From contig NZ_VTRT01000011.1 of assembly GCF_008274585.1 (NCBI RefSeq), forward strand, positions 1 to 49,296: 49,296 nucleotides of DNA. The letters are read 5' to 3'. Within the stretch, counting starts at the first letter, position 1; each line of letters opens with the position of its first letter. Below the pieces are notes generated by a model. That model saw nothing but the letters and a program-made list of their open reading frames with translations. It searched no databases and was not told the DNA's origin. Shown one piece after another: positions 254 through 30,572 of the stretch. Made by a program: the position numbers and the translations under genes. This DNA comes from Pedobacter sp. BS3 (GTDB taxonomy: Bacteria; Bacteroidota; Bacteroidia; Sphingobacteriales; Sphingobacteriaceae).

Positions 254-320
254 ATGATAATATCCTACAAAATATAGCGAAAATATTATAGTAAATACGT
301 ATGTTTTCAGAATAGCTTTG
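254..320 (+). promoter_or_regulatory. Operator copy 1 and -7 element of the symporter operon
   Basis: ATGATAATATCCTACA lies at 254-269. A perfect Bacteroidota -7 match, TAGCTTTG (consensus TAnnTTTG), lies at 313-320, exactly 59 nt from the motif start to the -7 start. No TTG-type -33 box is visible about 20 nt upstream of the -7, which suggests an activator-dependent promoter. The same motif at the same spacing occurs at 5753 and 30506. In this copy the second half of the palindrome (TAGGAT in copy 3) is not conserved. The predicted transcript start is about 325, giving a leader of about 90 nt before the symporter gene. That an AraC-family protein binds here is inferred. Confidence 0.72.
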
Positions 321-415
321 TTACTGTTTTAATAGCAGACTTTGAAATAAAGCAGGCGATGTTCAAAACAAGTGTTTTCCGGACTTGCCTGTTCTTAACC
401 AATTTTAAACGATAG

Positions 416-1978
416 ATGAAAAATCTTCCTGTACTTGACCTTTGTGTTATTGCACTTTACCTGATAGCCATGATAGTTGTCGGAATCTATTTCTCACGTA
501 AGAATAAGAGTTCCGAACAATTTACCAAAGCATCCGGAAAAATACCCGGCTGGGCCATTGGTTTATCTATATATGCTACATTTTTAAGTAGCAATACATT
601 CCTCGGAGTTCCCGGTAAGGCATTTGGAGGTAACTGGAACGCCTTTGTGTTCAGTATATCCATGCCTCTTGCTGCCTGGGTAGCATCCAAATATTTTGTA
701 CCATTTTATCGTACCATTGGCGGAGTATCCGCTTATACACATTTAGAGCACCGGTTTGGCGCCTGGGCACGTACCTACGCCGTTGTGTGCTTTTTATTAA
801 CACAGCTTGCCCGTATGGGCTCCATATTCTTTGGTATAGCCCTGAGCTTACAGGCGCTTACCGGATACAGCATGAGTGTTATCATGATTGTAATGGGCGT
901 CTGTATTATTTTTTACACTGTATTGGGCGGTATTGAGGCCGTTATCTGGACGGAGGTAGTGCAGGCTATTGTCAAGACAGTTGGAGCCTTGCTTATTCTT
1001 TTCCTGATTATTAAGGATATGCCCGGAGGCGTCTCCGATATTATAAAAATTGGTGTGACAGACCAGAAATTCAGTTTAGGAAGCCTGTCGCCCAATTTCA
1101 CCGAATCCACATTCTGGGTAGTGCTTTTTTATGGCTTCTTTATTAACCTGAACAACTTTGGTATGGACCAGAATTATGTACAGCGTTATCATACCGCCAC
1201 ATCCGAAAAAGAAGCAACCAAATCAGTTTGGTTGTGTGTGTGGCTGTATGTTCCGGCATCGCTGTTATTTTTCATAATCGGCACCTGCCTGTACGCTTAT
1301 TACCAGGTGCACCCGGAATTCTTGACCAGCATTAAGCAGCAGGTAGCTATAGAGCGACTACCGCATGGGGCTTCTTCACAGGAAATATCACAGCTGGCAT
1401 CTTCTCTAAAACCCGCCGATTATGGTGATAAGGTAATGCCGCAGTTTATGGTGACTAATATACCGGCGGGCCTGGTTGGATTGATTATTTCAGCTATTCT
1501 TTCGGCAGCCATGAGTACCATCAGCTCCGGTATGAATGCATCGGCAACGGTGTTCTCTGTCGATATTTTCAAGCGCTACATTAAACCTGATATCACCGAA
1601 AAACAAAATATGAATTTATTATATGTGGCTACGGTTGTGTTTGGTCTGCTCGGTATGGGAACCGGTATCGCGATGATTGGAGTCAAAAGCCTGCTTGATA
1701 TCTGGTGGGAGCTTTCCGGGATTTTTGCCGGGGGAATGTTGGGCCTATTCCTGTTGGGCATGATAAGCCGCCGGGCAGGAAATCATGAAGCGCTGACAGC
1801 TACACTTATCGGTATACTGGTTATCCTCTGGATGACCTTCTCTAACCTGATACCGGAGCAATACAGCTTTTTACGTAACCCATTGCACAGTAATATGATT
1901 ATTGTGATTGGTACGCTTACCATTTTCCTGGTGGGATTATTCATGACGTCAGTCCGCAAACAGCCGGTAACGCGATAA
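416..1978 (+). CDS. Sodium:solute symporter (SSS family)
   Basis: Inner-membrane sodium-coupled transporter, 520 residues, usual length for SSS/SGLT proteins. The protein is a series of hydrophobic helices starting at residues 7-26. The family signature in helix 8, AAMSTISSGMNASATVFSVD at about residues 364-383, carries the Ser/Thr residues that form the Na2 sodium site in this family. It is the first gene of a three-gene operon; the next gene starts 27 nt downstream. The partner lyase suggests a sugar-acid, deoxysugar or aminosugar as solute, but the substrate cannot be read from the sequence. An SSS transporter close to a DUF3748 gene and an AraC gene recalls the E. coli yidK-yidL-yidR neighbourhood (recalled from general knowledge). 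Transcription probably starts at the operator/promoter at 254-320. Confidence 0.9.
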   Translation: MKNLPVLDLCVIALYLIAMIVVGIYFSRKNKSSEQFTKASGKIPGWAIGLSIYATFLSSNTFLGVPGKAFGGNWNAFVFSISMPLAAWVASKYFVPFYRTIGGVSAYTHLEHRFGAWARTYAVVCFLLTQLARMGSIFFGIALSLQALTGYSMSVIMIVMGVCIIFYTVLGGIEAVIWTEVVQAIVKTVGALLILFLIIKDMPGGVSDIIKIGVTDQKFSLGSLSPNFTESTFWVVLFYGFFINLNNFGMDQNYVQRYHTATSEKEATKSVWLCVWLYVPASLLFFIIGTCLYAYYQVHPEFLTSIKQQVAIERLPHGASSQEISQLASSLKPADYGDKVMPQFMVTNIPAGLVGLIISAILSAAMSTISSGMNASATVFSVDIFKRYIKPDITEKQNMNLLYVATVVFGLLGMGTGIAMIGVKSLLDIWWELSGIFAGGMLGLFLLGMISRRAGNHEALTATLIGILVILWMTFSNLIPEQYSFLRNPLHSNMIIVIGTLTIFLVGLFMTSVRKQPVTR

Positions 1979-2005
1979 GAAATTAACAAGAAAAGAAATA
2001 AAATA

Positions 2006-2944
2006 ATGAAGAACAAGCAAAAGGGATTTATTCCCGTTATGTTAACGCCGTTTAAAGACAATGGCGCTGTAGATTATGATGGATTATCGCGAATAACCGA
2101 ACTGAATATAGAAGCAGGGGCCGCCGGGTTGTTTGCCAACTGCCTTTCCAGCGAAATGTTTGAGCTTACGCCACAGGAACGTATTGACAGTGTAAAGCAT
2201 ATTGTTAACATCGCAGACGGAGCAGTGCCTATAGTCGCTACCGGGACATTTGCCGGTACTGTAGCGCAACAGGCTGATTTTATAAAGCGTATATACGATA
2301 CCGGTATTGAGGCCGCCATAGTAATTACGGGACTAATGGCCGAAGAAACCGAGCCGGATGAAATTTTCGATAACAATGTTTTCAAGCTGATAGCGCTTAC
2401 GCCAGATATTCCCTTAGGATTTTACGAGTGTCCCGAGCCGTATAAACGATTAATTTCACCAGCACAATTAAAGCGGTTTGTTGAAACCGGCCGGGTAATT
2501 TATCATAAAGATACCTGCCTGGATATAAACCTGATAAAGGAAAAAATCGAGGCTACTAAAGATTATGAACAATTCGGTTTGTACGATGCTTACATGGTAC
2601 ACGCCGTTGAATCGCTTAAAGCCGGTTCCGCGGGGCTGTCCTGTATCCAGGGTAATTTCTTCCCCGAACTGATTGTTTGGTTATGCAATAACTATGACCG
2701 TCCGGAGCTACAACAACAGGTTGTTAAAGTGCAGTCATTCATTACCCGTAACATGGAACCTATGCATGAAGTATATCCCATCGTTGCCAAATATTTTCTT
2801 CAAAAACGCGGACTTAATATCTCATCGTTTACACGCAGAGACGTTGGCCGGTTTACACCAGATGTTAAGCAACGCATTGATGTGCTGTACAATGAATATT
2901 ACCAGCTTCGTGCCGAATTAAATCTCACTTTTGAAATAGCATAA
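2006..2944 (+). CDS. DapA/NanA-type aldolase (dihydrodipicolinate synthase family)
   Basis: TIM-barrel class I aldolase, 312 residues, cytoplasmic (no signal peptide). The Schiff-base lysine is probably K168 in VIYHKDT, and the conserved active-site tyrosine is Y140 in GFYECP; both fit the DapA/N-acetylneuraminate lyase arrangement. The carboxylate-binding loop, G(T/S)TGE in DapA and NanA, is instead ANCLSSE near residue 47, so the substrate is probably neither aspartate semialdehyde nor ordinary sialic acid. It lies between a symporter and a DUF3748 gene, which argues for catabolism of the imported compound by retro-aldol cleavage or dehydration. It could be a 2-keto-3-deoxy sugar acid aldolase or a NanA-like lyase; the family is secure, the substrate is open. 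Confidence 0.85.
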   Translation: MKNKQKGFIPVMLTPFKDNGAVDYDGLSRITELNIEAGAAGLFANCLSSEMFELTPQERIDSVKHIVNIADGAVPIVATGTFAGTVAQQADFIKRIYDTGIEAAIVITGLMAEETEPDEIFDNNVFKLIALTPDIPLGFYECPEPYKRLISPAQLKRFVETGRVIYHKDTCLDINLIKEKIEATKDYEQFGLYDAYMVHAVESLKAGSAGLSCIQGNFFPELIVWLCNNYDRPELQQQVVKVQSFITRNMEPMHEVYPIVAKYFLQKRGLNISSFTRRDVGRFTPDVKQRIDVLYNEYYQLRAELNLTFEIA

Positions 2945-2945
2945 T

Positions 2946-4340: not shown

Positions 4341-4362
4341 TTAAAAAGTACCTGCTTTCTGT

Positions 4363-4680
4363 TAGCGCTCGTTTGCAACGAGTGCTATATTCTGTTGTGA
4401 TTGTATCACAAACAATCATGATTTTTGGCGTTATAAACGCCGTGCAATGAGGCGCTCGTTGCAAACGAGCGCTATCCGATATGAAAATAGTAATGTGCCG
4501 TAGGCACAATCGCTTTGTAAAAAATGTATGTAAATATACTTGCCCTGTAGGGGCAATCCATTGATTGGTCTCACAATGTAGCAAATGATTAACCAAAAGA
4601 TATAACCCAGTAAGGTGTGTACCTGCGGCACGCTTCTCATACGTTTGTGCTGTTATAAAGCGGCTGCTCCTACGGAGCAA
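4363..4680. repeat. Cluster of short hairpin (REP-like) repeats
   Basis: Non-coding gap between the convergent ends of the DUF3748 and AraC genes. Hairpins seen: 4363-4387 (11-bp stem with one G-T pair, loop TGC), 4452-4472 (GCGCTCGTT/AACGAGCGC, loop GCA), 4494-4508 (TGTGCC/GGCACA, loop GTA), about 4540-4556 (TTGCCCT/GGGGCAA, loop GTA, one T-G pair) and 4665-4679 (TGCTCC/GGAGCA, loop TAC). Loops are mostly three bases. The segment 4619-4680 is homologous to 49212-49272. Position between convergent genes would allow a bidirectional terminator role. A 171-codon minus-strand open frame across the region is an artefact of the repeats. Confidence 0.75.
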
Positions 4681-4742
4681 GAGTCACTCGATTATATCCT
4701 TATTTTTCGTACCTCGCTTAACTCTTAACTTTCAACCTGACA

Positions 4743-5606
4743 TCAATACGTCAGATACTTCTTTTTATATTCTAACGGAGTCATGCCTTTAACTTTCTTA
4801 AAATGACGGTAAAAGTTAGAAACGTTATTAAATCCGCACTCAAAACAAATAACCTCGGTAGGTAATTTATCTTCTACCAGGTAGCGGCAGGCATGGCTTA
4901 TCCTGATTTCAATTAAAAAATCGTAATAGGTTTTCTTGGTAATCAGCTTAAAATAACGACAAAACGAAGTAACGCTCAAATTGCTCAATGCAGAAATCTC
5001 TTCCAGGGTAATTTCCCGCTTATAATTTGACAAGGTATGTGTATAAATTTTATTCAGCCTGACCGTGTCGTTCGACTGGGTAAAATTCGGCACCGAGGCA
5101 ATATTTTTGTACTCTTCAGTCTCTGCAAGGGTTTTTAAGATAGAAAGCAGGATAATCAGCCGGTCAAGGTTGGTAGCATCAATAGCCGACACCATCAGTT
5201 CCGACAATTTTTTCCGTGCTTCGCCCTGTATAACCATGCCGCGAAGCGCTTTCTCAAAAAGCTTGGGCAGCAGGTAAGCCTCCGGCAAGCTCAGGATATC
5301 TTTACCCAGGCAATCGGGTAAAAAATGAATCACGATGGCCTCAACGCTCAGCTCATCATTTTGCTGAAAATACTCCTCGCGGCAACGCCAGGTATGCGGT
5401 AAATTTTGTCCGAGCAGGATAATATCGCCGGAAGAAAAATTGCTGATATTATCCCCGATGAAACGCACTCCCTCACCCCGCATCACATAATGTAATTCCA
5501 GTTCCGGATGGTAGTGCCAGATAGTGCCAAAGTTGGGCTGTATGTCATGCCGTATGCTGAACGAGTTCTGAAGTTTAACCGGTACTTTATGATATTGCGG
5601 CTTCAT
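4743..5606 (-). CDS. AraC-family regulator with cupin sensor (paralogue 1)
   Basis: 287-residue cytoplasmic regulator. Residues about 10-85 form an AraC-type cupin sugar-binding domain (FGTIWHYHPELELHYVMRGE, followed by LLGQNLPHTW). Residues about 190-285 hold two helix-turn-helix motifs: ITLEEISALSNLSVTSFCRY, then the second helix pair ending CGFNNVSNFYRHFKKVKGMT with the typical TPLEYKKKY tail. It is closely related along its whole length to the proteins at 29626 and 45781. It is divergent from the isomerase-kinase operon; the shared 293-bp gap holds operator copy 2. Probable role: activate the symporter, isomerase and sigma operons when it binds its sugar. The ligand is unknown. Confidence 0.9.
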   Translation of the reverse strand: MKPQYHKVPVKLQNSFSIRHDIQPNFGTIWHYHPELELHYVMRGEGVRFIGDNISNFSSGDIILLGQNLPHTWRCREEYFQQNDELSVEAIVIHFLPDCLGKDILSLPEAYLLPKLFEKALRGMVIQGEARKKLSELMVSAIDATNLDRLIILLSILKTLAETEEYKNIASVPNFTQSNDTVRLNKIYTHTLSNYKREITLEEISALSNLSVTSFCRYFKLITKKTYYDFLIEIRISHACRYLVEDKLPTEVICFECGFNNVSNFYRHFKKVKGMTPLEYKKKYLTY

Positions 5607-5752
5607 AGCGGCTTTTTACTAATTTAAGTTCTGGTTAGAAATTAAGTATTACAGGCTACAGCGCTTTAGCAATACAGCCGGTTCTCATCAATTGGTTTTG
5701 TTTTTTTAATTCTATTACTAAGGAAAGCAAAAAATACAATCTTTCAAAGTTT

Positions 5753-5819
5753 ATGATAATATCCTACAAAAAAAGGATAAGAAACTGCATAAATCCGGAG
5801 ATTGGTTAACGCATATTTG
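5753..5819 (+). promoter_or_regulatory. Operator copy 2 and -7 element of the isomerase operon
   Basis: ATGATAATATCCTACA at 5753-5768 is followed by AAAAAAGGATAAGAAA. ATCCTA and AGGAT form an imperfect inverted repeat with a 6-nt centre. CATATTTG at 5812-5819 matches five of the six fixed positions of TAnnTTTG and starts exactly 59 nt after the motif start, as at 254 and 30506. No -33 TTG is present at the right distance. The leader contains a small hairpin (GCTGC/GCAGC) near 5824-5839. It lies between the divergent AraC gene and the isomerase gene, so it may also control the AraC gene. Confidence 0.75.
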
Positions 5820-5898
5820 TATAGCTGCATGAGGGCAGCCACTAACCGGTTTATGAATTAAATTTTCAGTTTAACGTATTAATCATTCTTACGATATT

Positions 5899-7515
5899 AT
5901 GAGTACAGGCAACAAAGAAATCTGGCTGGTTGCCAGCGGAGATTTACGATTAGCAGCCAACCAGGATTGCTGGCAGGCGCAATATGAAATGGAAGAGCTG
6001 TTAAAAGCGGCCCTTGAAAAGCAAGGTTATACCATCAGGCGGGCACATCCTTACGATGAAGTAAAGAAACACGGGTTTATCGATTCGCAAAAGATGGGGA
6101 TGGAAGTTTTCCGAAATATTGACCCCAATGCGCCGCTGATTGTTGCAGAAAGCGTCTGGCAATATACACACCATGTGCTTGCCGGACTTACCACGCATCA
6201 GGGCCCGATTCTTACCGTTGCCAATTGGAGCGGTATGTGGCCGGGTTTGGTCGGCTTGTTAAACCTGAATGGTTCGCTAACCAAAGCAGGAGTAAATTAC
6301 AGCACGCTGTGGAGTAAAGATTTCGGCGATGATTTCTTTACCCGGAACCTGAACGAGTGGCTGACTACCGGGAAAATTAAACATGACCTGCAGCATGTGA
6401 AAGATTATAAGCTGGTTAAGATTCCGGCAGCGGATGAGAAGACTGGGTTGGAATTTGCCGCTGAACTGAAAGGCAACAAAGCCATTATGGGTGTGTTCGA
6501 TGAAGGCTGTATGGGCATGTTCAATGCCATTGTGCCCGACCATTTGTTGCATGCTACAGGCATTTTCAAGGAGCGTCTCAGCCAATCAACGTTATATGCC
6601 CGTATGCAGCAGGTAAGCGACGCGGATGCCCGCAAGGTATTAGATTGGCTGCTGCAAAAGGGAATGAGCTTTAACTGGGGCAGCGATGAAGCTACCGAGC
6701 TTACCGAAAAACAAACATTGGAACAATGTAAAATGTATATCGCTGCGCTCCGCATTGCCGATGAATTTGGCTGCAATACCATCGGTATACAATACCAGCA
6801 GGGCCTGAAAGACCTCACTGGCGCAAGCGATTTGGTAGAAGGATTGTTAAATAATACCGAACGTCCGCCGGTGTATAGCGAAGATGGCAGAGAATTGTAT
6901 GCAGGCAAAGCGCTTCCGCATTTTAACGAGGTTGACGAATGCGCTGGTATTGATGCGTTGGTAACCTATCATCTGTGGAATAAATTAGGCTTACGCGGCG
7001 ATAACACCCTGCATGATATTCGCTGGGGCGAACATTACCGGGGCGATGGTATTGATGATTTTGTTTGGGTGTTCCTGATTTCAGGAGCTGTACCCGCTTC
7101 GCATTTTGCAAATGGCTACCGCGATGCAGGCAGCGACAGGCAGCCACCAATGTATTTCAGGTTAGGCGGCGGTACATTAAAAGGTGTAAGCAAACCGGGA
7201 CCGATTGTGTGGAGCCGCGTTTACATTATGGATGATAAGCTGCATTGCGATTTAGGTGTTGGCGAAGCTGTAAAGCTCCCCGAAGACGAATCGCAGCGTC
7301 GCTGGAAGGCAACCACGCCACAGTGGCCCATTATGCACGCCGTGCTTAAAGGCGTTTCCCGCGACCAGTTGATGGGGCGGCACAAAGCCAATCACATCCA
7401 TGTAGTGTACACGGATAATGAGGCACAGGCACATCAGGCCTGCCGGATTAAGGCCGCTGCCCTGGCAGGATTAGGTATTGAAGTGCATTTCTGCGGAGAT
7501 GTGGAACTGGATTAG
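5899..7515 (+). CDS. L-fucose isomerase-like aldose-ketose isomerase
   Basis: 538-residue cytoplasmic protein resembling the FucI/AraA superfamily, which interconverts aldoses and ketoses with a metal cofactor. The N-terminal half has a Rossmann-like domain (ESVWQYTHHVLAGL, then GPILTVANWSGMWPGLVG). AIMGVFDEGCMGMFNAIV puts E202 at a probable metal-binding position; IGIQYQQGLKDL and HANHIHVVYTD supply further polar residues typical of this fold. It is slightly shorter than E. coli FucI (about 591 residues). The kinase downstream looks like a ribulokinase, so the natural substrate could be L-arabinose or another pentose/deoxyhexose rather than L-fucose. First gene of an operon driven from 5753-5819. 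Family fairly sure, substrate open. Confidence 0.8.
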   Translation: MSTGNKEIWLVASGDLRLAANQDCWQAQYEMEELLKAALEKQGYTIRRAHPYDEVKKHGFIDSQKMGMEVFRNIDPNAPLIVAESVWQYTHHVLAGLTTHQGPILTVANWSGMWPGLVGLLNLNGSLTKAGVNYSTLWSKDFGDDFFTRNLNEWLTTGKIKHDLQHVKDYKLVKIPAADEKTGLEFAAELKGNKAIMGVFDEGCMGMFNAIVPDHLLHATGIFKERLSQSTLYARMQQVSDADARKVLDWLLQKGMSFNWGSDEATELTEKQTLEQCKMYIAALRIADEFGCNTIGIQYQQGLKDLTGASDLVEGLLNNTERPPVYSEDGRELYAGKALPHFNEVDECAGIDALVTYHLWNKLGLRGDNTLHDIRWGEHYRGDGIDDFVWVFLISGAVPASHFANGYRDAGSDRQPPMYFRLGGGTLKGVSKPGPIVWSRVYIMDDKLHCDLGVGEAVKLPEDESQRRWKATTPQWPIMHAVLKGVSRDQLMGRHKANHIHVVYTDNEAQAHQACRIKAAALAGLGIEVHFCGDVELD

Positions 7516-7550
7516 TTGTTAGTTGGTTAGTGATTGGTTGGTTAGTGTGA

Positions 7551-7614: not shown

Positions 7615-7620
7615 AAGAGA

Positions 7621-9252
7621 ATGCCCGCAAAATATGTTATTGGTATAGATTTCGGTACCGATTCGGTTAGAACCTTATTGGTGAATGCCCATACCGGGGA
7701 AGAAGCCGGATGTGCCGTTCATTATTATCCGCGATGGAAAGAAGGCAAATATTGTAATGCTGCTGTTTCACAATTCAGGCAGCATCCGCTGGATTACCTG
7801 GAAAGTATGGAAGCCTGTTTGCACGAGGTGCTGGCAGGCCTATCGCCGGAAGTGGTGAATAATATCACCGGTATTTCGGTAGATACTACGGGCTCATCGC
7901 CGGTAGCGGTTGATAAAAACGGGACACCACTGGCGCTTTTGCCTGAATTTTCGGAAAATCCCAATGCTATGTTTATTTTATGGAAAGACCATACGGCTAA
8001 TGCCGAGGCCGAAGAGATAAACAAGCTATGTCGCCGGTGGCATACGGATTATACCCGTTACTCAGGCGGAGCCTATTCGTCGGAATGGTTCTGGTCCAAA
8101 ATACTGCATACCCTGCGGGTGGATGAGCAGGTAAGGCAAAAAGCGTTTTCGTGGATGGAACATAGCGACTGGATGCCGGCTGTATTAACTGGTAATACCA
8201 ATCCGCTTACCGCGAAACGTAATCGCTGCGCCGCGGGGCACAAGGCCATGTGGCACGAGGAATTTGACGGTTTACCCGAAGAAGCATTCTGGAAAACGCT
8301 CGACCCCTTGTTAACCGGTTTAAGAAGCCGTCTTTACCAGGATACTCATACGGCCGATGAAGCCGCGGGAACAATTTCTGCCGAATGGGCGCACCGGCTC
8401 GGTTTACCGGAGCACGTTAAAATCGGCGTAGGCGCTATCGACGCACACTTTGGAGCTGTGGGCGCTTGCATAGAACCTTATTCGCTGGTAAAAGTAATGG
8501 GAACCTCAACCTGCGACATGCTGATAGCGCCGGCAGAAAAGCATAAAAATCATTGTGTGAAGGGAATTTGCGGTCAGGTTGATGGCTCCATTCTTCCCGG
8601 AATGCTGGGTATGGAAGCCGGTCAGTCGGCCTTTGGCGATGTCTATTTCTGGTTTAAGGAGCTGTTAAGTTTTCCGCTAAAGCAGCTATTAAAAGATAAA
8701 ATACCGGCCGAAACTCTTACAGCGGCGGCAGAAAATATACTGCCAGAATTGAATAAGCTGGCGGCAACGCTTCCGGTTACAGAAAAAGATGTGGTAGCCT
8801 TAGACTGGATTAACGGTCGCCGCACACCGGATGCAGACCTGACATTAACCGGTACCATTGCGGGTATCAGCTTAGGAACCGATGCCCCGCGAATTTTTAA
8901 GGCGCTGGTAGAAGCTACAGCCTTTGGCTCAAAGGCCATTGTTGAGCGTTTTAATGATGAGGGAGTCCCCGTCAAAAAGATAATCGCCTTGGGCGGCATC
9001 AGTAAGAAATCAGCCTTTGTGATGCAAACGCTGTCCAGCATTTTGAACCTGCCTATTGAAGTTATCCAAAGCGAGCAGGCTTGCGCATTAGGCGCCGCCA
9101 TGTTCGCGGCAACGGCAAGCGGCGTATATCCGGATATTCAGCAGGCGCAAAAAGCCATGTCGGGAGGAATTGAAACCGTATATTCGCCCGAAAAGGATAA
9201 AGTAGCGGTTTACGAAAAATTGTACGAGCGCTATAAACAGCTACAACATTAA
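7621..9252 (+). CDS. araB: Ribulokinase (FGGY family)
   Basis: 543-residue carbohydrate kinase that phosphorylates L-ribulose or a related ketose with ATP in the cytoplasm. The FGGY N-domain opens with YVIGIDFGTDSVRTLLVNA, the phosphate-1 motif in a form typical of AraB. The C-domain has VKVMGTSTCDMLIAP, VEATAFGSKAIVERF, IALGGISKKSAFVMQTLSS and CALGAAMFAATASGVY, covering the adenosine and connect motifs. Length fits ribulokinases. It follows the isomerase after a gap filled by a tandem repeat, and the sigma A gene starts only 45 nt downstream, so sugar catabolism and the sigma factor probably share a transcript. Kinase family is certain; ribulose preference rests on overall resemblance. Confidence 0.88.
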   Translation: MPAKYVIGIDFGTDSVRTLLVNAHTGEEAGCAVHYYPRWKEGKYCNAAVSQFRQHPLDYLESMEACLHEVLAGLSPEVVNNITGISVDTTGSSPVAVDKNGTPLALLPEFSENPNAMFILWKDHTANAEAEEINKLCRRWHTDYTRYSGGAYSSEWFWSKILHTLRVDEQVRQKAFSWMEHSDWMPAVLTGNTNPLTAKRNRCAAGHKAMWHEEFDGLPEEAFWKTLDPLLTGLRSRLYQDTHTADEAAGTISAEWAHRLGLPEHVKIGVGAIDAHFGAVGACIEPYSLVKVMGTSTCDMLIAPAEKHKNHCVKGICGQVDGSILPGMLGMEAGQSAFGDVYFWFKELLSFPLKQLLKDKIPAETLTAAAENILPELNKLAATLPVTEKDVVALDWINGRRTPDADLTLTGTIAGISLGTDAPRIFKALVEATAFGSKAIVERFNDEGVPVKKIIALGGISKKSAFVMQTLSSILNLPIEVIQSEQACALGAAMFAATASGVYPDIQQAQKAMSGGIETVYSPEKDKVAVYEKLYERYKQLQH

Positions 9253-9297
9253 AATAATAGGTATTATATTTATGGTTTAACCCAGAATTCTGCTCTC

Positions 9298-9837
9298 ATG
9301 AATATTCAATCCGACCAGCAGTTATTGCAACAGCTTAAAGCGGGTAGTTCCAGGGCTTATGATGCTATATTCCTGAAATACTATAAGCTGCTGTGTATTA
9401 ATGCCTATTTTTATCTTCACGATGAACAGGAAGCCAAAGACCTGGTACAGGCTTTTTTCCTGGAATTGTGGGAAAAGAAAATTTATATGCGGTTGGAGGG
9501 CGATATTAAAGGATATTTATACCGTTCCATACAAAATAGATGTTTGAATTATTTGCGAAAGCAGGAAACCAATACCAAAAAGCAATCCGAGCTGGTCAGT
9601 GATTTAGAAACCGAGTATATATTTGAGGAAGAAGACTCGTTGGAAGCGGTTTATGCCATGCTGAACGGTGCGTTCAGCGAGTTGCCCAACCAGCGTAAAG
9701 AAGCATTAAAGCTGGTTTATTTCCAGGATAAAAAGTACCAGGAAGCTGCCGATATTATGGGTATCAGCATCAATTCGCTGAAAACACATTTAAAAATCGG
9801 ATTAAAGAATCTACGCGAAATGCTGAATATCTTTTAA
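9298..9837 (+). CDS. ECF RNA polymerase sigma factor, FecI-like (sigma A)
   Basis: 179 residues. Region 2 is at about 20-85 (YDAIFLKYYKLLCINAYFYL, then EAKDLVQAFFLELWEK) and region 4 at about 125-175 (LPNQRKEALKLVYFQDKKYQ, then AADIMGISINSLKTHLKIGL). It is the promoter-recognition subunit expected to switch on the SusC operon at 13046 when released by the FecR protein encoded 41 nt downstream. Its own expression may come from the AraC-controlled promoter at 5753-5819 through the kinase gene, since only 45 nt separate them and no terminator is visible. Unlike the other two sigma factors here, it lacks a hydrophobic C-terminal tail. Confidence 0.92.
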   Translation: MNIQSDQQLLQQLKAGSSRAYDAIFLKYYKLLCINAYFYLHDEQEAKDLVQAFFLELWEKKIYMRLEGDIKGYLYRSIQNRCLNYLRKQETNTKKQSELVSDLETEYIFEEEDSLEAVYAMLNGAFSELPNQRKEALKLVYFQDKKYQEAADIMGISINSLKTHLKIGLKNLREMLNIF

Positions 9838-9878
9838 AAAAATTAACCTGAAATCCCCTCTTTATTGTATTACTACTA

Positions 9879-11018
9879 ATGACATCCGATTACGAGCATA
9901 TACGCCAGTTGTTTATGGAGAAGCTGGCCGGCACACTTAGTCCGGCAGATGAGCTCCGTTTACAGCAGTTACTGAATGCCGATGAGCGTAACCGGGCGTT
10001 GTGGCAATCGCTTGAAAAACAAAGTGCTAATATTGGTGCAGGCGATTTTCTCGATAAATTAGATACGGAGCATGATTTGTCAGCAATCAGGAAAACAATA
10101 CAGCAGCGTTCTGTAAAGCGGATACGTCCCTGGGTAATTTCGGCGGCCGCTATGTTGCTGGTTGTGCTGGGAATCAGCAGCTGGTTTTTATTGGTAAGGA
10201 AAAATCAGCCGGAGAAGATATTGGCTAAAAATACGGTTAAAAGTAGTTCTGAGCACGTCCAGTTGTTACTGGAAAACGGCGAAGCCGTGACGCTGGATAA
10301 AACCACGAAACATCGTGTTTTAACGTTGGGAAATGTGAAGTTTCAGACTTCCGGCAATACTTTGCAGACCGTAAGCGGCAGTAATCCCGAACAGCTGACC
10401 ACGCTTTCGGTTCCGGTAAAAGAAGATTTCCGGGTAACCTTGTCAGATGGTACGAAAGTGTGGCTGAACTCCATCTCAAAATTACGTTTCCCCGTACGCT
10501 TTACCGGGAAAACACGGGAAGTTTACCTGGAAGGGGAGGCCTATCTCGAAGTGGTCAAAGATGCCCAACATCCGTTTATTGTTCATACCGAACAATCGGA
10601 TATCCGTGTTTTAGGAACAAAATTCAATGTGAATACCTACCAGGCAGGCAGTATGAAAACCTCGCTGGTGGAAGGTTCTGTTTTGCTGACAGCTAAAAAC
10701 GGGAGTGCTACAAAGTTATCGCCGGGTTACCAATCGGTGTATACGAAAGATGGATTTAAAACAACATCTTTTGACGCGGATGAAGTGCTCTCGTGGATGG
10801 ATGGAGTCTATTACTTTCAGCATGTGCAGCTAAAGGAGCTGGAACCGGTAATTAGCCGTTGGTTCGGGCTTAATGTTGCATTTGATAATCCGGCATTGGG
10901 TGATATACGCTTATCCGGAATGATAGAAAAACAGCAACTGACCGGTTTTTTAAAAGACCTGGAAACGTCAAGCGATATTCAGTATACCATTTCCGGCAAT
11001 GTGCTTCATTTAAAGTAA
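9879..11018 (+). CDS. FecR-family anti-sigma factor (FecR A)
   Basis: 379-residue single-pass inner-membrane protein. The cytoplasmic N-terminus (about 1-85) would bind sigma A. A transmembrane helix follows at about 89-108 (ISAAAMLLVVLGISSWFLLV). The periplasmic part has the FecR domain (FRVTLSDGTKVWLNSISKLR, GEAYLEVVKDAQHPF, RVLGTKFNVNTY) and a C-terminal DUF4974 domain (YYFQHVQLKELEPVISRWF). In this family the periplasmic part contacts the N-terminal STN domain of the cognate SusC and relays substrate binding to the sigma factor. The usual order is FecI-FecR-SusC; here an ATPase gene and about 2 kb intervene before SusC. Confidence 0.92.
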   Translation: MTSDYEHIRQLFMEKLAGTLSPADELRLQQLLNADERNRALWQSLEKQSANIGAGDFLDKLDTEHDLSAIRKTIQQRSVKRIRPWVISAAAMLLVVLGISSWFLLVRKNQPEKILAKNTVKSSSEHVQLLLENGEAVTLDKTTKHRVLTLGNVKFQTSGNTLQTVSGSNPEQLTTLSVPVKEDFRVTLSDGTKVWLNSISKLRFPVRFTGKTREVYLEGEAYLEVVKDAQHPFIVHTEQSDIRVLGTKFNVNTYQAGSMKTSLVEGSVLLTAKNGSATKLSPGYQSVYTKDGFKTTSFDADEVLSWMDGVYYFQHVQLKELEPVISRWFGLNVAFDNPALGDIRLSGMIEKQQLTGFLKDLETSSDIQYTISGNVLHLK

Positions 11019-11620: not shown

Positions 11621-12754
11621 ATGATACATAGGAATTTACAGCAAAGCATTATAGATACGTGCTTTAAAAGTAAGGTTATCTTGCTTTTGGGGGCTCGCCA
11701 GGTAGGAAAAACAACCTTGTTAAAAGAGGTTATAGCCCAAATTGGTGTTCCGTCTGTATGGTTAAATGCCGATGAAGCCGATGTTTTACAAGCCTTTGAA
11801 ACAGCAACCACCAGTACACAGCTTTTGCAACTGATTGGCACAAACAATAAGCTGGTTGTGATAGATGAAGCCCAACAAATTCCGGATATCGGCAGAAAGC
11901 TCAAGCTGATTTATGATACCCGGCCTGACATCCAGCTGATTGCTACCGGTTCGTCGTCTTTTGATTTGCAGGACAAAATGGCTGAGCCGCTCACAGGGCG
12001 AAAACGGACATTTTATCTATATCCGCTCAGTTACAGGGAAATTGCACAAAACCAATCTGTTTTAGAGGCAAGAAGACTGTTAGAAACACGCCTTATTTAC
12101 GGTTCTTATCCCGATGTGGTAAACCATCCGGGTACTGAAAAAAGTGTATTGACCGAAATTGCAGCCAGTTATCTATACAAAGACATTTTAAAACTGGATT
12201 ATATCCGCAAACCTGCCCATATAGAAAAATTATTACAGGCTCTGGCATTTCAGGTAGGAAGCGAGGTGAGTTACCACGAATTAGCGCAAACCATCGGGAA
12301 TATTGACACGACAACCGTAGAAAAATACATTGATTTGCTGGAAAAAGCATTTGTCATATTCAAACTTCCGGCCTTGAGCCGAAATTTGCGTAATGAAATC
12401 AAAAAAGGGAAAAAATATTATTTTTATGATAACGGCATACGCAACGTGCTGATAAGCAATTTCTCGGGTGTTGATTTAAGGTACGACAAAGGCGCTTTGT
12501 GGGAAAATTTCCTGATTTCTGAACGGATAAAAAACAACCATTACAAAGGCCTGTATGTAAATTCTTATTTTTGGCGAACACAAGATAAGGCCGAAATTGA
12601 TTACATTGAGGAAGCTAACGGCATTTTGAGTGCCTTTGAAATAAAGTGGAAAGCACAGAAAGTGCGTTTTGCCAATTCTTTTTTAGAAGCATATCCAAAT
12701 CATAGAACAGCAGTAGTTAGCCGGTCTGATTTTGAGCCTTTTATAGGAATGTAA
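11621..12754 (+). CDS. AAA family ATPase with DUF4143 domain
   Basis: 377 residues. Walker A is GARQVGKTT (24-32) and Walker B LVVIDE (78-83), with a sensor-like IQLIATGSSSF further on; this is the AAA_14 domain. The C-terminal half is DUF4143, a winged-helix/nuclease-like domain seen in this ATPase family (GALWENFLISERI and a nuclease-like FWRTQDKAEIDYI... AFEIKWKAQ). Such proteins are common, patchily distributed and of unknown function; a PD-(D/E)XK-like fold has been suggested for the tail, consistent with the E-I-D...E-I-K pattern here. It has its own promoter and is flanked by direct repeats, so it looks like an insertion into the polysaccharide locus rather than part of it. Confidence 0.9.
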   Translation: MIHRNLQQSIIDTCFKSKVILLLGARQVGKTTLLKEVIAQIGVPSVWLNADEADVLQAFETATTSTQLLQLIGTNNKLVVIDEAQQIPDIGRKLKLIYDTRPDIQLIATGSSSFDLQDKMAEPLTGRKRTFYLYPLSYREIAQNQSVLEARRLLETRLIYGSYPDVVNHPGTEKSVLTEIAASYLYKDILKLDYIRKPAHIEKLLQALAFQVGSEVSYHELAQTIGNIDTTTVEKYIDLLEKAFVIFKLPALSRNLRNEIKKGKKYYFYDNGIRNVLISNFSGVDLRYDKGALWENFLISERIKNNHYKGLYVNSYFWRTQDKAEIDYIEEANGILSAFEIKWKAQKVRFANSFLEAYPNHRTAVVSRSDFEPFIGM

Positions 12755-22488: not shown

Positions 22489-22568
22489 AGATTTTGCCTT
22501 TACCACAAATCATCGGTAAAACAACTTCGGGTTTTAGTTTAGACAGGTAAGTAGTTTAAGTCTATTTT

Positions 22569-25064: not shown

Positions 25065-25123
25065 AGATAGAGCTCTAGTATTAATCCACTTTACTCTCTT
25101 CCTTAAAATTATAATATAAAAAG

Positions 25124-25990: not shown

Positions 25991-26036
25991 AATCCAGCTA
26001 TAGGGTCAAAAGAAAAAATAACGTAACAACTTATAA

Positions 26037-28142
26037 GTGAAGCACTATATCAGGACAATCATACTGGCCGGTTTGTTTGCGATAAATGCAGGAGTAGCAA
26101 AGCTACAGGCACAAGAACAGATAACCATAGGCTCAGAAATATGGATAGAACCCGGCCAGCGCAAAGAAGAAATCGAAGAATGGTTCAGACTGTCCAGCCA
26201 GAACAAAATGCGCTCCGTACGCCTGTTCATGATGTGGAACTACATCGAAGAAAAACCCGGAGTATTCAATTTTATACAATACGATTGGGCCTTTGCCGCG
26301 GCAAACAAATACAACATAAAAATAGAAGCCACCCTATGCGCCATACACGGTCCCGTAAGCGCCAGCAAAATATATCATGGCCGTCCGCAGTTCAACGAAC
26401 TATTCCCCACAGAAGAACTGATGCACAAGTCAGCAATATATATCGAAAAAACAGTAAACAAGTATAAAAATAACAAAGCCCTGGAAAGCTGGTGGCTGCT
26501 GAATGAACCCAGAAGGTTCGACGCCACCTCACCCTTAGCCACCCAAAAGCTGCAAGAATGGGTAAAGCAAAAATATAAGACCATCGAAGCCGTCAATAAA
26601 GCCTGGATAGAAAACTATAAAAACTTCACAGAAATAAAATACGACCCCCTGTGGACCCAGGGGAACTATTTTTACTGGCCGGTGCCCTCCATAGACTGGT
26701 ACCAGTTCCAGCGGGACTACCTGACCTTCAACCTGCAGTGGATAGCCGGGCAAATACGCCAGTACGACAAAAAGACCGAAATAACGATGAACCCCGCCAA
26801 CGTTTTCGAGTCAGCCCACCAATACGATTTACCAGCCTATAAAACATTCAACAACATCCTGGGCGCATCCATGCACGCCTCCTGGCAGCTCAGGTTTATG
26901 GAACGCGAACAATACGGGTACGCCGTAGCAGGCATCTCAGAAATATTAAAAGGCGCAGCCCCGCAAGGGAAATTCTGGATTAGCGAACTACAGGGAGGCA
27001 ATAACATCTGGAGCGGCAAAACCCCCATGTGCCCCGACTCGCTGGACTTAGCACAATGGATATGGACCGGTATAGGCTCCGGAGCCAGAAAAGTAGTGTA
27101 TTGGGCCTTAAACTACCGCAGGCAGGGAATAGAAGCAGGCGAATGGGGACTGTTCGGCTTTAGAGGCGAAGCCACCGACCGTTCCAGGGTAACATTAAAA
27201 ATGAACCAGGTGCTGGAAAAATACCAGGCATTCTTTAAAGACGCCAAACCCTATAAGCCCAAAGTAACCCTGATTCTCAGCCCCGAAACCATGCGTGTGC
27301 TGTTACACATCGACGCCTTTGGAACAGGCGCCCGGCTGTTTGACAAAGATGCCCACATGCGGAGCCTGATGATGTGGTTCGTAGCATTACAAGAAATAGG
27401 CTGCCAGGCAGACATCCGCTATATGAACGATTACGAATGGAATTCACCAGAGCAGGGGCGTATAGCGATATTAGCCAATGCAGTCTCTATACCCACAGCA
27501 CAAGTAACGCAGATACAGCAATTTGTAGCCAGCGGAAACCAGCTTATCGCCGAAGGGCTCACCGGCTTTTTTGACGAATACGAAACCAATACCTTTCAAA
27601 CCAGCTTTGATATGGAAAAACTGTTAGGCGGCAGAATGACAGACATAAGATACCAGGAAGACCCTAAAAGTTTCCAGGTAGACGGTCAGGAAGAAAAGCT
27701 GCCCGCATATATATGGAAGCCCTTATTGCAAGCCACCTCAGGCACTGCAAAAATAGCAGGAAAAGACGGCGGAGATATCATAGCCCTGCGGAACAGCTTT
27801 GGAAACGGAACAACGCTGTGGATGCCAGCCTGTTTCAGCTTAGGAGCTTTGCCATCAAATACAAGGCCGCTCGCCTTATTAGCAGGAACAGAGCTAAAAA
27901 CCACCTTACAATCGCAGCCCTTTTACTTTAAAGAATATACCAAAGGCGCATTGCTTCGCATGATGCAGAATGGCAATCAATATCTGACGGTGATAACCAA
28001 TAATAATAAAACGGCGATAAATGCAGAACTGGTTAACACCTTAAAGCTGAACCCAACGGTGATATTCGGAAACGGGGCAGCCCTGGAAGGCACTAAAGTA
28101 CATCTAACGGGACGCGAAACCTTGGTTATCCTATGGAAGTAA
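26037..28142 (+). CDS. GH42-like beta-galactosidase, exported
   Basis: 701 residues, GTG start (26037) following an AT-rich stretch; the frame opens with a signal peptide (KHYIRTIILAGLFAINAG... LQAQ). The catalytic (beta/alpha)8 domain has the clan GH-A pair: acid/base E157 in WWLLNEPRRF and nucleophile E317 in KFWISELQGG, spacing 160 residues, as in GH42 beta-galactosidases. A beta-galactosidase trimerisation-type domain follows at about 415-590 (KVTLILSPETMRVLLHIDAF, RIAILANAVSIPTAQ), then a small C-terminal beta domain. Expected to hydrolyse terminal beta-galactosides in the periplasm or at the surface. C-rich codon usage, like the preceding gene. GH42 over neighbouring GH-A families is likely but not certain. 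Confidence 0.82.
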   Translation: MKHYIRTIILAGLFAINAGVAKLQAQEQITIGSEIWIEPGQRKEEIEEWFRLSSQNKMRSVRLFMMWNYIEEKPGVFNFIQYDWAFAAANKYNIKIEATLCAIHGPVSASKIYHGRPQFNELFPTEELMHKSAIYIEKTVNKYKNNKALESWWLLNEPRRFDATSPLATQKLQEWVKQKYKTIEAVNKAWIENYKNFTEIKYDPLWTQGNYFYWPVPSIDWYQFQRDYLTFNLQWIAGQIRQYDKKTEITMNPANVFESAHQYDLPAYKTFNNILGASMHASWQLRFMEREQYGYAVAGISEILKGAAPQGKFWISELQGGNNIWSGKTPMCPDSLDLAQWIWTGIGSGARKVVYWALNYRRQGIEAGEWGLFGFRGEATDRSRVTLKMNQVLEKYQAFFKDAKPYKPKVTLILSPETMRVLLHIDAFGTGARLFDKDAHMRSLMMWFVALQEIGCQADIRYMNDYEWNSPEQGRIAILANAVSIPTAQVTQIQQFVASGNQLIAEGLTGFFDEYETNTFQTSFDMEKLLGGRMTDIRYQEDPKSFQVDGQEEKLPAYIWKPLLQATSGTAKIAGKDGGDIIALRNSFGNGTTLWMPACFSLGALPSNTRPLALLAGTELKTTLQSQPFYFKEYTKGALLRMMQNGNQYLTVITNNNKTAINAELVNTLKLNPTVIFGNGAALEGTKVHLTGRETLVILWK

Positions 28143-28187
28143 TGATGGGTATTCTCTGAAGTCTGATACTGTTTTAAGAAATAAATT

Positions 28188-29600
28188 ATGCGAATGAAAA
28201 CTATACACTTTATTCTCTTATGTCTTTTCTGCCTGGTAGGTAAGGTATATGCCCGGGTAGATTTGCCATCAGTATTTTCGGATGGAATGGTTATGCAGCG
28301 GCAGTCGAAAGTAGCCGTTTGGGGGAAGAGCGATGCCGGAGCTAAAATAACAATAGTTCCTTCATGGAATGAAAAGTTGTACACTACAGCAAGCGATAGC
28401 AGCGGTACCTGGAAGCTGAACATTGCTACCCCGGCTGCCGGAGGTCCTTATACCCTGACCGTTAGCGATAGCCAAAGCCAGCTTGTTTTATCGGATATAT
28501 GGATAGGCGAAGTTTGGGTAGCATCAGGGCAATCCAATATGGCAATGCCGGTTAGAGGTTTTACCACAGATTCCATTTTGAACGGACAGAAAATCATAGC
28601 GACGGCAGAAAATCCTTACATTCGCTTTTACACAGGTCCGCAGATATCCTGGGGTAAACCGCTTACGGATTTCAGGCGCAATAACTGGCAGCCATCAACG
28701 CCGGTGTCGGTGAGGAACTTTAGCGCTGCTGCCTATACGTTTGCCCGTGAATTACAGCGGCGCTTACAGGTTCCTGTTGGGATTATACAGGTAGCCTGGG
28801 GCGGTACGGTTATCCAGGCCTGGATGAGCGCACACAGCCTGAGCACATTTCCGTCAGTGCATGTACCCGAAGAAATAAATGGTGCCTTTGAAAATAAAAA
28901 CACTCCTGCCGGCTTATTTAACGGGATGATAGCTCCCATTGCCGGGTATGGTATTAAAGGAGTAATATGGTACCAGGGTGAGCAAAATGTACGGGAGCCG
29001 GATGCCTACGCGAAGTTGTTCCCGGCTATGGTAAAAAACTGGCGACAGGTGTGGAATGCGGATTTCCCTTTCTATTATGCACAGATAGCTCCCTGGGATT
29101 ATAAAAGTATGAATAAGAAAGCTCCGCTGCTAAGAGAAGCCCAGCTAAATAGTTTACAAACAATTCCCAATTCAGGAATGGCTGTACTCACAGATGTCGG
29201 GGCGGAAAAAACAATTCATCCTCCTGATAAGGAGTCGGTAGGCAAGCGCCTGGCTTATATCGCTTTGGCAAAAACGTATCATCAGCCTATCGCGTGGTCC
29301 GGGCCGGTATATCGGAATATGCAGGCAGAACATAATGCCTTGCTGCTGAGCTTTGGCCATGCCGAAGGTCTGCATTTTTCGGGTACAACATCGGATAATT
29401 TTGAAATAGCCGGAGCCGACCGGGTATTTTATCCGGCGAAAGCCCTCATAACAGGGAATAAAATACGTGTGAGTGCTGAACAGGTAGTCCGACCAGTGGC
29501 AGCCCGGTATGCGTTTAAAGGCTGGGTTGCAGGCGATTTATTTAATAAAGACGGTCTGCCTGCATCATCTTTCAGAACAGATAACTGGCCGGTAAACTGA
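28188..29600 (+). CDS. Sialate O-acetylesterase-like SGNH carbohydrate esterase
   Basis: 470 residues with signal peptide (about 1-24, ending KVYAR). N-terminal jelly-roll begins VDLPSVFSDGMVMQRQSKVA, a hallmark of the sialate-9-O-acetylesterase (SASA/DUF303) family. The nucleophile is S116 in VASGQSNMAMPV; GVIWYQGEQNV supplies the QGE block; the Asp-His pair is probably in LTDVGAEKTIHPPDKESVG. It removes acetyl groups from sugars; in plant-glycan loci relatives act on acetylated pectin or xylan, so sialate is not assured. Codon usage returns to the AT-rich local style. The AraC gene begins 25 nt downstream. Confidence 0.88.
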   Translation: MRMKTIHFILLCLFCLVGKVYARVDLPSVFSDGMVMQRQSKVAVWGKSDAGAKITIVPSWNEKLYTTASDSSGTWKLNIATPAAGGPYTLTVSDSQSQLVLSDIWIGEVWVASGQSNMAMPVRGFTTDSILNGQKIIATAENPYIRFYTGPQISWGKPLTDFRRNNWQPSTPVSVRNFSAAAYTFARELQRRLQVPVGIIQVAWGGTVIQAWMSAHSLSTFPSVHVPEEINGAFENKNTPAGLFNGMIAPIAGYGIKGVIWYQGEQNVREPDAYAKLFPAMVKNWRQVWNADFPFYYAQIAPWDYKSMNKKAPLLREAQLNSLQTIPNSGMAVLTDVGAEKTIHPPDKESVGKRLAYIALAKTYHQPIAWSGPVYRNMQAEHNALLLSFGHAEGLHFSGTTSDNFEIAGADRVFYPAKALITGNKIRVSAEQVVRPVAARYAFKGWVAGDLFNKDGLPASSFRTDNWPVN

Positions 29601-29625
29601 GCCAAACCCAATAATAAGCCGGAAA

Positions 29626-30498
29626 ATGAAGGCCAGCTTACATACCGTAATACCTGAGCATCAGCATTCATACCGGGTGTTCCACACGATTCAGCCGCAT
29701 TTCGGCACCGTATGGCATTACCATCCTGAACTGGAGCTTCATTATATTATCCGGGGCGAAGGAATACGTTTTATCGGCGACAGTATAGACCACTTTAGTT
29801 CGGGCGAGCTGGTGTTACTGGGAGCAAACCTGCCTCATACCTGGCGCTGTCGCGAAGAATATTTCAGGAATGATAGCGATAAAGTTGCCGAAGCTATGGT
29901 AGTACAATTTTTGCCGGAATGTTTAGGTTGTGATTTCCTGGAATTACCCGAATCCTGGCCACTCACCCGTCTGTTTGATAAGGCATCTGCCGGAATGTTC
30001 ATCAGGGGTAAAAGTAAGGATGAAGTGTGCCGGCTGATGCAGCATGCTATGCTGGCTGATGGACTGGAGCGGTTGGTGATTTTATTGCGCATATTAAAAA
30101 TTCTTGCTCATACAGAAGAATATCACCCGATTTCAGCAACTAATAACTTTCGGCCAAAGGAGGCCGACCGGCTACGGTTAAACCGTATTTACGATTATAC
30201 ATTAACCCATTACAGGAATGCCATCAGCCTGAATGAAATAGCAGCAATATGTCATACCAGCATTGCCAATTTTTGCCGCTACTTTAAGCAGATAACGAGG
30301 AAAACGTACAGCAACTTTTTAACAGAGGTGCGCATTAATCAGGCCTGCAGGATGTTACTTGAGACCAGCAATACCGTAACGTATATCAGCTACGAATGCG
30401 GATTTAATACTACCGCCAGCTTCTACCATCATTTTAAAAAATTAAAAGGGGTTACTCCGTCAGTATATAAGAAAAGCCTGTTCAGGGATTGTCTTTAA
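29626..30498 (+). CDS. AraC-family regulator with cupin sensor (paralogue 2)
   Basis: 290 residues. Same layout as the protein at 4743-5606: cupin (FGTVWHYHPELELHYIIRGE, then LLGANLPHTWRCREEYF) and a double helix-turn-helix at about 190-285 (ISLNEIAAICHTSIANFCRY; CGFNTTASFYHHFKKLKGVT). Closest to the third paralogue at 45781: even the ribosome-binding region is alike (AAGCCGGAAAATGA here, AAGCCGGAAATGA there), so the two arose by duplication including non-coding DNA. It ends PUL A, 25 nt after the esterase, and operator copy 3 lies 8 nt beyond its stop codon. Likely activator of the locus; ligand unknown. Confidence 0.9.
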   Translation: MKASLHTVIPEHQHSYRVFHTIQPHFGTVWHYHPELELHYIIRGEGIRFIGDSIDHFSSGELVLLGANLPHTWRCREEYFRNDSDKVAEAMVVQFLPECLGCDFLELPESWPLTRLFDKASAGMFIRGKSKDEVCRLMQHAMLADGLERLVILLRILKILAHTEEYHPISATNNFRPKEADRLRLNRIYDYTLTHYRNAISLNEIAAICHTSIANFCRYFKQITRKTYSNFLTEVRINQACRMLLETSNTVTYISYECGFNTTASFYHHFKKLKGVTPSVYKKSLFRDCL

Positions 30499-30505
30499 TA
30501 AGTTC

Positions 30506-30572
30506 ATGATAATATCCTACATAAATAGGATAAGAATTGCAATAATTTATATCATTGATTTCTGTACATTAG
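30506..30572 (+). promoter_or_regulatory. Operator copy 3 and -7 element of sigma B
   Basis: ATGATAATATCCTACA at 30506-30521, then TAAATAGGATAAGAA. Here the inverted repeat ATCCTA-N6-TAGGAT is perfect. TACATTAG at 30565-30572 matches five of six fixed bases of TAnnTTTG and starts exactly 59 nt after the motif start. No -33 TTG at the proper distance. The predicted start near 30577 leaves a leader of about 170 nt before sigma B. Confidence 0.73.

Follow-up and report, generated by a model that had tools for sequence, protein, structure and literature searches.

A direct-repeat operator phased with the -7 box in Pedobacter sp. BS3 and its probable AraC-type activator

In Escherichia coli the half-sites araI1 and araI2 lie in direct orientation with a 21-bp period and span about -72 to -35. 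AraC carrying arabinose binds both of them, araI1 more tightly, and araI2 recruits RNA polymerase (PMC4760080). In Bacteroides the operators of the hybrid two-component systems (HTCS) are direct repeats spaced 21 bp on average; HTCS_Man uses two 16-bp sites with a 5-bp spacer, and the likeness of the motifs tracks the likeness of the regulators (PMC3878776). These hybrid sensors are of AraC type, and the principle of such an operator is therefore already known. Promoters of the Bacteroidota are hard to read, the -33 box being weak or missing, and to our knowledge few operators have been defined for small AraC regulators in this phylum outside Bacteroides. Here we analysed a stretch of 49,296 nt from Pedobacter sp. 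BS3 (NZ_VTRT01000011.1, the complete contig C3, henceforth the window), in which one 16-mer stands at the same distance from the -7 box of three promoters. By comparison with relatives the 16-mer is well supported as part of a real operator. Each site very probably serves a cupin-type AraC activator in a class II-like arrangement, most likely the protein called AraC1 below; its paralogs AraC2 and AraC3 perhaps use the site as well. A literature search, with subscription papers mostly beyond its reach, found nothing on this operator.

The 16-mer and its distance to the -7 box

The original prediction had placed the 16-mer ATGATAATATCCTACA at positions 254, 5753 and 30506, each time with a -7 element exactly 59 nt further on and with no visible -33 box. 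All three copies were recovered exactly by a search of the window, on the + strand. The 8-mers starting 59 nt after the first base of the 16-mer are TAGCTTTG (313), CATATTTG (5812) and TACATTAG (30565); they agree with TAnnTTTG, the box that occupies -12 to -5 in Flavobacterium psychrophilum (PMC9723704), in 6/6, 5/6 and 5/6 letters, whereas the score at offsets 58 and 60 is at most 2. At none of the three sites was the -7 box preceded by a TTG at a distance of 17-23 nt, so the claimed lack of a -33 box also stood. This lack is not unusual in the phylum, as no -33 box is identifiable in Flavobacterium johnsoniae (PMC7366714). Shuffled windows gave a mean of 0.71 matches with at most three mismatches and the real window gave four, three of them exact; one of 100 shuffled windows also reached four. 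The fourth real match (45672, three mismatches) lies inside the open reading frame (ORF) 43649-45754, has no TAnnTTTG at offset 59 and was taken as chance.

Throughout the genome (4,811,172 bases in 27 contigs) seven matches with at most one mismatch were found, against none for the reversed 16-mer: C3:254, 5753 and 30506, C22:26321, 29970 and 39202, and C1:1210438. A 30-letter extended pattern with up to three mismatches returned the same seven sites and no others, its control none. All seven are intergenic (outside the surrounding long ORFs) and lie 92-241 nt before a start codon on the same strand; the motif is thus neither abundant genome-wide nor free of promoter bias. Six of them have the -7 box at offset 59 (5 or 6 of 6 letters), and C22:39202 has a 6/6 box at offset 58. 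Among the seven, mean pairwise identity is 0.95 in the 16-mer (half-site 1), 0.57 in a second half-site described below and 0.59 in the -7 box, compared with 0.26 in the 120 nt upstream and 0.27 at offsets 67-160. As the flanks are at background, the sites are not copies of a mobile element or longer repeat. An RNA element was likewise rejected, since the window holds no Rfam match at gathering thresholds and transcription is predicted to start downstream of the site. A weak weight-matrix match at C22:45756 (locus L009, position 9756), antisense inside dnaA and lacking a -7 box, was taken as chance. The matrix scan also brought up a short tandem array of TATCTAA-like units at about 19370-19455 of L009.

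The spacing is conserved in relatives. Within 151 genomes of the family, 41 contain the 16-mer with at most one mismatch; there are 74 matches including the seven own ones, and 17 for the reversed pattern. From the 67 non-own matches in 40 genomes, 29 loci were taken, one per genome, without requiring a -7 box. The box stands at exactly 59 in 17 of them (5 or 6 of 6 letters) and at 60 in one, and 17 of 29 is therefore a spacing figure free of selection for the box. In a free-gap search the gap between 16-mer and -7 box could take any of 31 values from 30 to 60, one match in 31 being expected per gap. This search yielded 68 matches in 56 of 399 family genomes, 61 of which share the offset-59 gap (59 of 66 without the own genome); the reversed pattern yielded three. 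The exact phased pattern of this search is strict, catching two of the seven own sites. A scan of named genomes covered at least 120 sites on at least 118 stretches, with the phylum taken from titles and with Ignavibacteria and an "uncultured bacterium" counted among the non-Bacteroidota. Among the matches listed there, the offset-59 gap occurs in 50 of 75 from Bacteroidota versus 3 of 45 others, and its holders include Pedobacter, Mucilaginibacter, Olivibacter, Hufsiella, Arcticibacter, Flavobacterium, Arcicella, Hymenobacter and a Catalimonadaceae strain. One of the three outsiders is a Williamsia metagenome-assembled genome. On its contig L139 (2159-7997) a phased AraC1-type site occurs together with SusC/SusD-like genes and with a gene for an FG-GAP protein that is 70% like the one on C22. 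This contig is probably a misbinned piece of a Bacteroidota genome.

Architecture of the operator

When the 16-mer was slid along the seven own sites, the highest self-match was obtained at a lag of 21 (66 of 112 identities), the next being 55 at lag 24. The same lag is best in 54 of the 71 phased sites of relatives, or in 35 of 49 after thinning to less than 85% identity. In the 71 sites the distal half-site holds 28.4 bits of information and the proximal one 13.8 bits; the consensus is a near-invariant AtGATAATATCCTAyA distally and a degenerate wwGnnAAnA...A proximally. Among 107 distinct matches from relatives, the 33 without a -7 box at 58-60 have a mean lag-21 self-match of 4.73, which is background, versus 9.21 in the 71 phased ones. 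The sets of 107 and of 71 sites derive largely from loci that were selected for a -7 box at a distance of 30-60 nt, and among L200-L237 the non-Bacteroidota loci are still included. Judged by these alignments, the operator consists of two 16-bp half-sites in direct orientation with a period of 21 bp, of which the distal one is strong and the proximal one degenerate.

A different symmetry had been pointed out in the original prediction, namely an inverted repeat ATCCTA-N6-TAGGAT. Such an operator would call for a regulator from another family, for example LacI or GntR, that binds as a symmetric dimer. The inverted repeat is indeed perfect in copy 3, the only perfect case, and nearly so in copy 2. 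However, TAGGAT stands at the corresponding position in only 2 of the 71 sites of relatives, so that the dyad symmetry is not conserved. The best inverted self-match of the own sites amounts to 48, compared with 66 of 112 for the direct repeat, and the regulator linked to the site is of AraC type. We therefore give hardly any credence to an inverted-repeat operator.

The candidate regulator

The three paralogous AraC proteins encoded in the window had been named as natural candidates. All three have an AraC helix-turn-helix (HTH) domain and a cupin-like domain, the cupin match of AraC2 falling just under the cut-off. Together with AraC4, a more distant paralog encoded on C1, they measure 287-290 aa and contain these two domains only; the 48 AraC1-type ORFs in the set of relatives measure 287-316 aa, a comparison of lengths only, as domains are known for the own proteins.

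AraC1-type genes (E <= 1e-100) were found in 56 of the 151 genomes. The exact phased pattern is accompanied by such a gene in 21 of 21 of these genomes, or 20 of 20 without the own one (hypergeometric P 1.4e-10, uncorrected for kinship). Of 68 AraC1-type matches, 30 loci were tested for a phased site in the 420 nt upstream in divergent orientation, with up to four mismatches and a -7 box at 58-60. Such a site is present in 27 of the 30 (own genome included); the controls gave 2/30 on the reverse strand, 1/30 in shuffles and 0/30 in coding stretches. Hence, by genome as well as by locus, a cognate AraC-type regulator is linked to the site. Of the 50 phased Bacteroidota sites among the matches listed from named genomes, 23 have an AraC1 ortholog in divergent orientation no more than 500 nt away, and the same-genus genome G001 has neither an AraC1 match nor the site.

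In a quick tree, which came with long-branch warnings, AraC1, AraC2, AraC3 and the AraC1 orthologs form one group (support 99), in which AraC2 and AraC3 are each other's closest relatives (support 99) and stand next to the AraC1 group. Outside the own genome AraC2 finds matches of at most 53% identity in the 151 genomes, and these are mostly AraC1-type genes. Because the relatives of AraC1 are linked to the site and AraC2 has no close relatives elsewhere, AraC1 appears the likeliest reader of the operator; AraC2 and AraC3 may share the site or may have drifted from it. The proposal of three candidates thus holds for AraC1, whose close relatives accompany the site, and less so for AraC2 and AraC3, which have no such linked close relatives. 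A further AraC paralog, with one in-frame TAG, was seen at G000:C1:1295257-1296069 (L055).

Alternatively, AraC2 and/or AraC3 could be the main regulators in the own genome, AraC1 keeping the isomerase promoter only. The AraC2 gene ends 7 bp before site 3, and all three proteins belong to the one tree group with the AraC1 orthologs. Moreover, this genome has seven sites, compared with at most four in any relative among the 151 genomes at the same one-mismatch threshold. Yet the same operator is present in genomes in which the AraC2 matches are these distant, mostly AraC1-type genes. The AraC3 locus (L049, 3.8 kb) contains no site, and relatives with one AraC1-type gene at threshold, such as G083, have several sites. 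We consider a leading role of AraC2 or AraC3 possible, if rather unlikely.

Several observations weigh against AraC1 as the activator at a phased direct repeat. Of the 29 loci taken without regard to the -7 box, 11 lack the box; most of the 11 are without half-site 2 as well and resemble chance matches. Taken singly, the own sites 1 and 3 have a weak proximal half-site and other lags equal or beat lag 21, so the repeat is visible in the set and not in every copy. The exact phased pattern, strict as it is, is absent from 35 of the 56 AraC1-positive genomes. Three of the 30 AraC1-type loci (L110, L113 and L116) have no phased site at threshold, several of the 27 positive ones carry three to four mismatches, and 27 of the 50 named Bacteroidota sites listed have no divergent AraC1 within 500 nt. 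Finally, the HTH helices of AraC2 and AraC3 differ from those of AraC1, so that the two may or may not share the operator.

AraC4 allows a comparison with a second clade. Its relatives (E <= 1e-90) occur in 16 of the 151 genomes, own included, and ten rows of the tree form a clade. L282, with a similar word and an odd, very long row, was not counted; L283-L287 fall elsewhere in the tree and lack the word. Each of the ten has a GGTTAAGATAGTAT-like site upstream in divergent orientation, and in eight a -7 box with 5 or 6 agreeing letters out of 6 stands at 59, a register that the weight matrix favours as it includes the -7 box. A free-gap search with the exact word is the fairer test. In the 399 genomes it gave ten matches, six of them in the 59 register and all six in genomes of the AraC4 clade, own included; the other four have other gaps, one of them without an AraC4 match. 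The reversed word gave 22 matches, and since the word alone is not enriched, the evidence consists of register and company. A few positions in the HTH helices distinguish the two clades, for example FYRHFK in the AraC1 clade versus FNRHFK in the AraC4 clade. We also considered AraC4 as the reader of the AraC1-type site on C1, which is less likely because its clade has its own word.

In the own genome an AraC4-type operator, with TACCTTTG at offset 59, stands beside the AraC4 gene (L010 7269-7335, - strand; C1 about 1209269-1209335) and faces a pyruvate phosphate dikinase gene (L010 4814-7252, - strand). A possible third word (GCcAATATAG-like) with a -7-like box at 59 was noticed in another AraC group, at G000:C12:592134 (L052) and in L287, at low scores of -3.5 and 1.1.

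The second clade also bears on a reading without any activator, in which the site would act as an upstream element or belong to an unusual promoter used by an alternative sigma factor. Genes for extracytoplasmic function (ECF) sigma factors do lie in the same locus, and the spacing to the -7 box is fixed. On the other hand, the -7 boxes belong to the housekeeping type, TAnnTTTG, described in PMC9723704, the site reaches to about -71 with its 21-bp repeat, and in a related AraC clade the frame is kept with a different sequence. An alternative sigma factor is consequently a very unlikely explanation.

Target genes, mechanism and known systems

The half-sites, boxes, regulators and target genes of the window are collected in Table 1; the limits of the operons were guessed from gene order.

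Table 1. Features of the window, with transcript starts predicted by the -12 to -5 rule of PMC9723704
Feature	Position	Strand	Remarks
Site 1, distal half-site (strong)	254..269	+	16-mer search
Site 1, proximal half-site TAGCGAAAATATTATA	275..290	+	21 bp downstream of distal
Site 1, -7 box TAGCTTTG	313..320	+	offset 59; predicted transcript start 325
Symporter (sodium:solute), target of site 1	416..1978	+	closest solved relative 5nv9, 238.5 bits
DHDPS-superfamily aldolase	2006..2944	+	probably same operon as symporter; far below NanA cut-offs
AraC1	4743..5606	-	cupin + AraC HTH; divergent from site 2; favoured regulator
Site 2, distal half-site	5753..5768	+	16-mer search
Site 2, proximal half-site AGGATAAGAAACTGCA	5774..5789	+	11/16 identical to distal
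Site 2, -7 box CATATTTG	5812..5819	+	offset 59; predicted transcript start 5824
Arabinose/fucose-isomerase-like enzyme (Isom), target of site 2	5899..7515	+	Pfam, model, Foldseek
Ribulokinase	7621..9252	+	probably same operon as isomerase; above TIGR01234 and NF003154 cut-offs
ECF sigma factor	9298..9837	+	probably in site 2 operon
FecR anti-sigma factor	9879..11018	+	probably in site 2 operon
AraC2	29626..30498	+	54% identity with AraC1; sister of AraC3; possibly shares operator
Site 3, distal half-site	30506..30521	+	16-mer search
Site 3, proximal half-site AGGATAAGAATTGCAA	30527..30542	+	8/16 identical to distal
Site 3, -7 box TACATTAG	30565..30572	+	offset 59; predicted transcript start 30577
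ECF sigma factor, target of site 3	30747..31313	+	FecR 31775-32989 and SusC/SusD downstream
AraC3	45781..46644	+	60% identity with AraC2; flanks of about 1.5 kb free of the site

We propose that an AraC dimer would approach the DNA from one face and bind both 16-bp half-sites with their 21-bp period. By the box rule of PMC9723704 transcription would start at offset 71, which would place the distal half-site at about -71 to -56 and its proximal partner at about -50 to -35. The latter is thus next to or over the -35/-33 region and keeps a fixed distance to the core promoter in the spacing counts (61/68, 17/29 and, among the named Bacteroidota matches listed, 50/75); a subunit bound at -50 to -35 would take the place of the -33 contact and be able to touch RNA polymerase. 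In the 71 sites of relatives a TTG 17-23 nt before the -7 box occurs twice, compared with about 13 expected from composition, and this scarcity is to be expected if the proximal subunit takes the -33 place. A ligand inside the cell, probably derived from the breakdown of the sugar on which these genes act, would enable the dimer to fill the weak proximal site. The loaded dimer would switch on the symporter-aldolase genes, the isomerase-ribulokinase-ECF/FecR genes and the second ECF sigma gene, as well as the remaining four promoters, which lie on C22 and C1. The idea of a shared AraC-type activator in fixed phase to RNA polymerase, put forward in the original prediction, is therefore supported by conserved spacing, by the linkage to AraC1 and by the geometry of the operator.

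Bound at -71 to -35, AraC1 could also act as a repressor that blocks polymerase until the ligand releases it. This would weigh against activation, and it fits the overlap of the proximal half-site with the usual -33 region. Against it, the scarcity of TTG makes the promoters look weak unaided. Furthermore, activators typically show rigid phasing, which repressors do not need. Repression is in our view improbable.

As to the substrate of the genes under the proposed activator, 5nv9, the closest solved relative of the symporter, is presumably the sialic-acid symporter SiaT. The aldolase scored 40.5 and 28.2 bits with the NanA models (cut-offs 281 and 382), which does not identify it as an N-acetylneuraminate lyase, and it has no PDB sequence match at 1e-15. 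Sialic acid as the substrate is weakened by these scores and by the partner genes for an isomerase and a ribulokinase. The isomerase has no PDB sequence match at 0.01; its model (mean pLDDT 80) is closest in Foldseek to D-arabinose, L-arabinose and L-fucose isomerases, with TM-scores of about 0.5 and an rmsd of 22, which indicates the fold class only. Among the 50 named Bacteroidota sites listed, 18 precede an isomerase gene, seven a symporter gene and two a SusC-like gene within 700 nt; 23 have no query gene within that distance, and in the named loci listed a ribulokinase gene was not seen beside the isomerase gene. The sites on C22 go with a 1172-aa protein, with two small ORFs without Pfam matches followed by SusC, SusD and DUF5017 genes, and with an esterase (SASA) together with an FG-GAP protein; the C1 site goes with FG-GAP proteins. 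In a relative, genome G025, the neighbouring genes encode an apiosidase, GH43 and BT_1020-like proteins, a neighbourhood that we take to resemble loci for the pectin rhamnogalacturonan II (RG-II). RG-II contains the acidic sugars Kdo (3-deoxy-D-manno-oct-2-ulosonic acid) and Dha (3-deoxy-D-lyxo-hept-2-ulosaric acid) (PMC12282258). It is conceivable, though doubtful, that Kdo would be split into pyruvate and D-arabinose, which isomerase and ribulokinase would then process.

The ECF sigma/FecR pairs at 9298-11018 and 30747-32989 stand behind AraC-type operators and are each followed by a SusC gene with an STN domain, possibly forming a two-tier cascade. Between FecR and SusC of the first locus lies an AAA_14/DUF4143 ATPase gene (11621-12754), which may be an insertion. 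A terminator-like hairpin (31439-31455) separates ECF sigma and FecR genes of the second locus, where the number of hairpins in the region is not above chance. The ORF 43649-45754 combines an FGE-sulfatase (formylglycine-enzyme-like) domain with subsequent BNR sialidase-like repeats.

Taken together, the data allow a wider but tentative reading, which we hold to be somewhat less probable than its negation. Paralogous cupin-AraC activators of the Bacteroidota would use one rigid frame, a 21-bp repeat with the -7 box at 59, and clade-specific words: the distal consensus given above in the AraC1 clade, rGGTTAAGATAGTATyA in the AraC4 clade and perhaps a third for the C12:592134 clade. The AraC1 regulon would stand above two ECF sigma/FecR modules, with a core regulon of symporter, pyruvate-type aldolase, arabinose-isomerase-like enzyme and ribulokinase that would serve an ulosonic acid such as Kdo from RG-II. 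If this were true, orthogonal regulons could be rewired by few base changes, and sugar already inside the cell would gate sensing at the surface.

In promoters of this kind, a 16-letter word at an exact distance would permit regulons to be read directly in Sphingobacteriaceae, Flavobacterium and Cytophagales, and the two clades offer a test bed for changes of AraC DNA specificity under a fixed promoter geometry. Among described systems, NanR of Bacteroides (BT0433) controls genes for sialic acid use (PMC3878776), but it belongs to the ROK family and not to AraC. The sigma-A promoters of Flavobacterium psychrophilum have the same TAnnTTTG box at -12 to -5, and the main text of PMC9723704 makes no mention of AraC. 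The HTCS resemble the present system in the AraC-type DNA-binding domain and the 21-bp direct repeats. Unlike them, the regulator here is small, has a cupin-like N-terminus and no hybrid sensor, and is thus not an HTCS; for these, the accessible part of PMC3878776 gives no fixed distance to a -7 box. From araI1-araI2 of E. coli the operator differs in the sequence of its half-sites and in the Bacteroidota -7 box that replaces the -35/-10 elements. It shares with that pair the two adjacent operators with the stronger one distal, and its geometry is nearly the same as that of araBAD.

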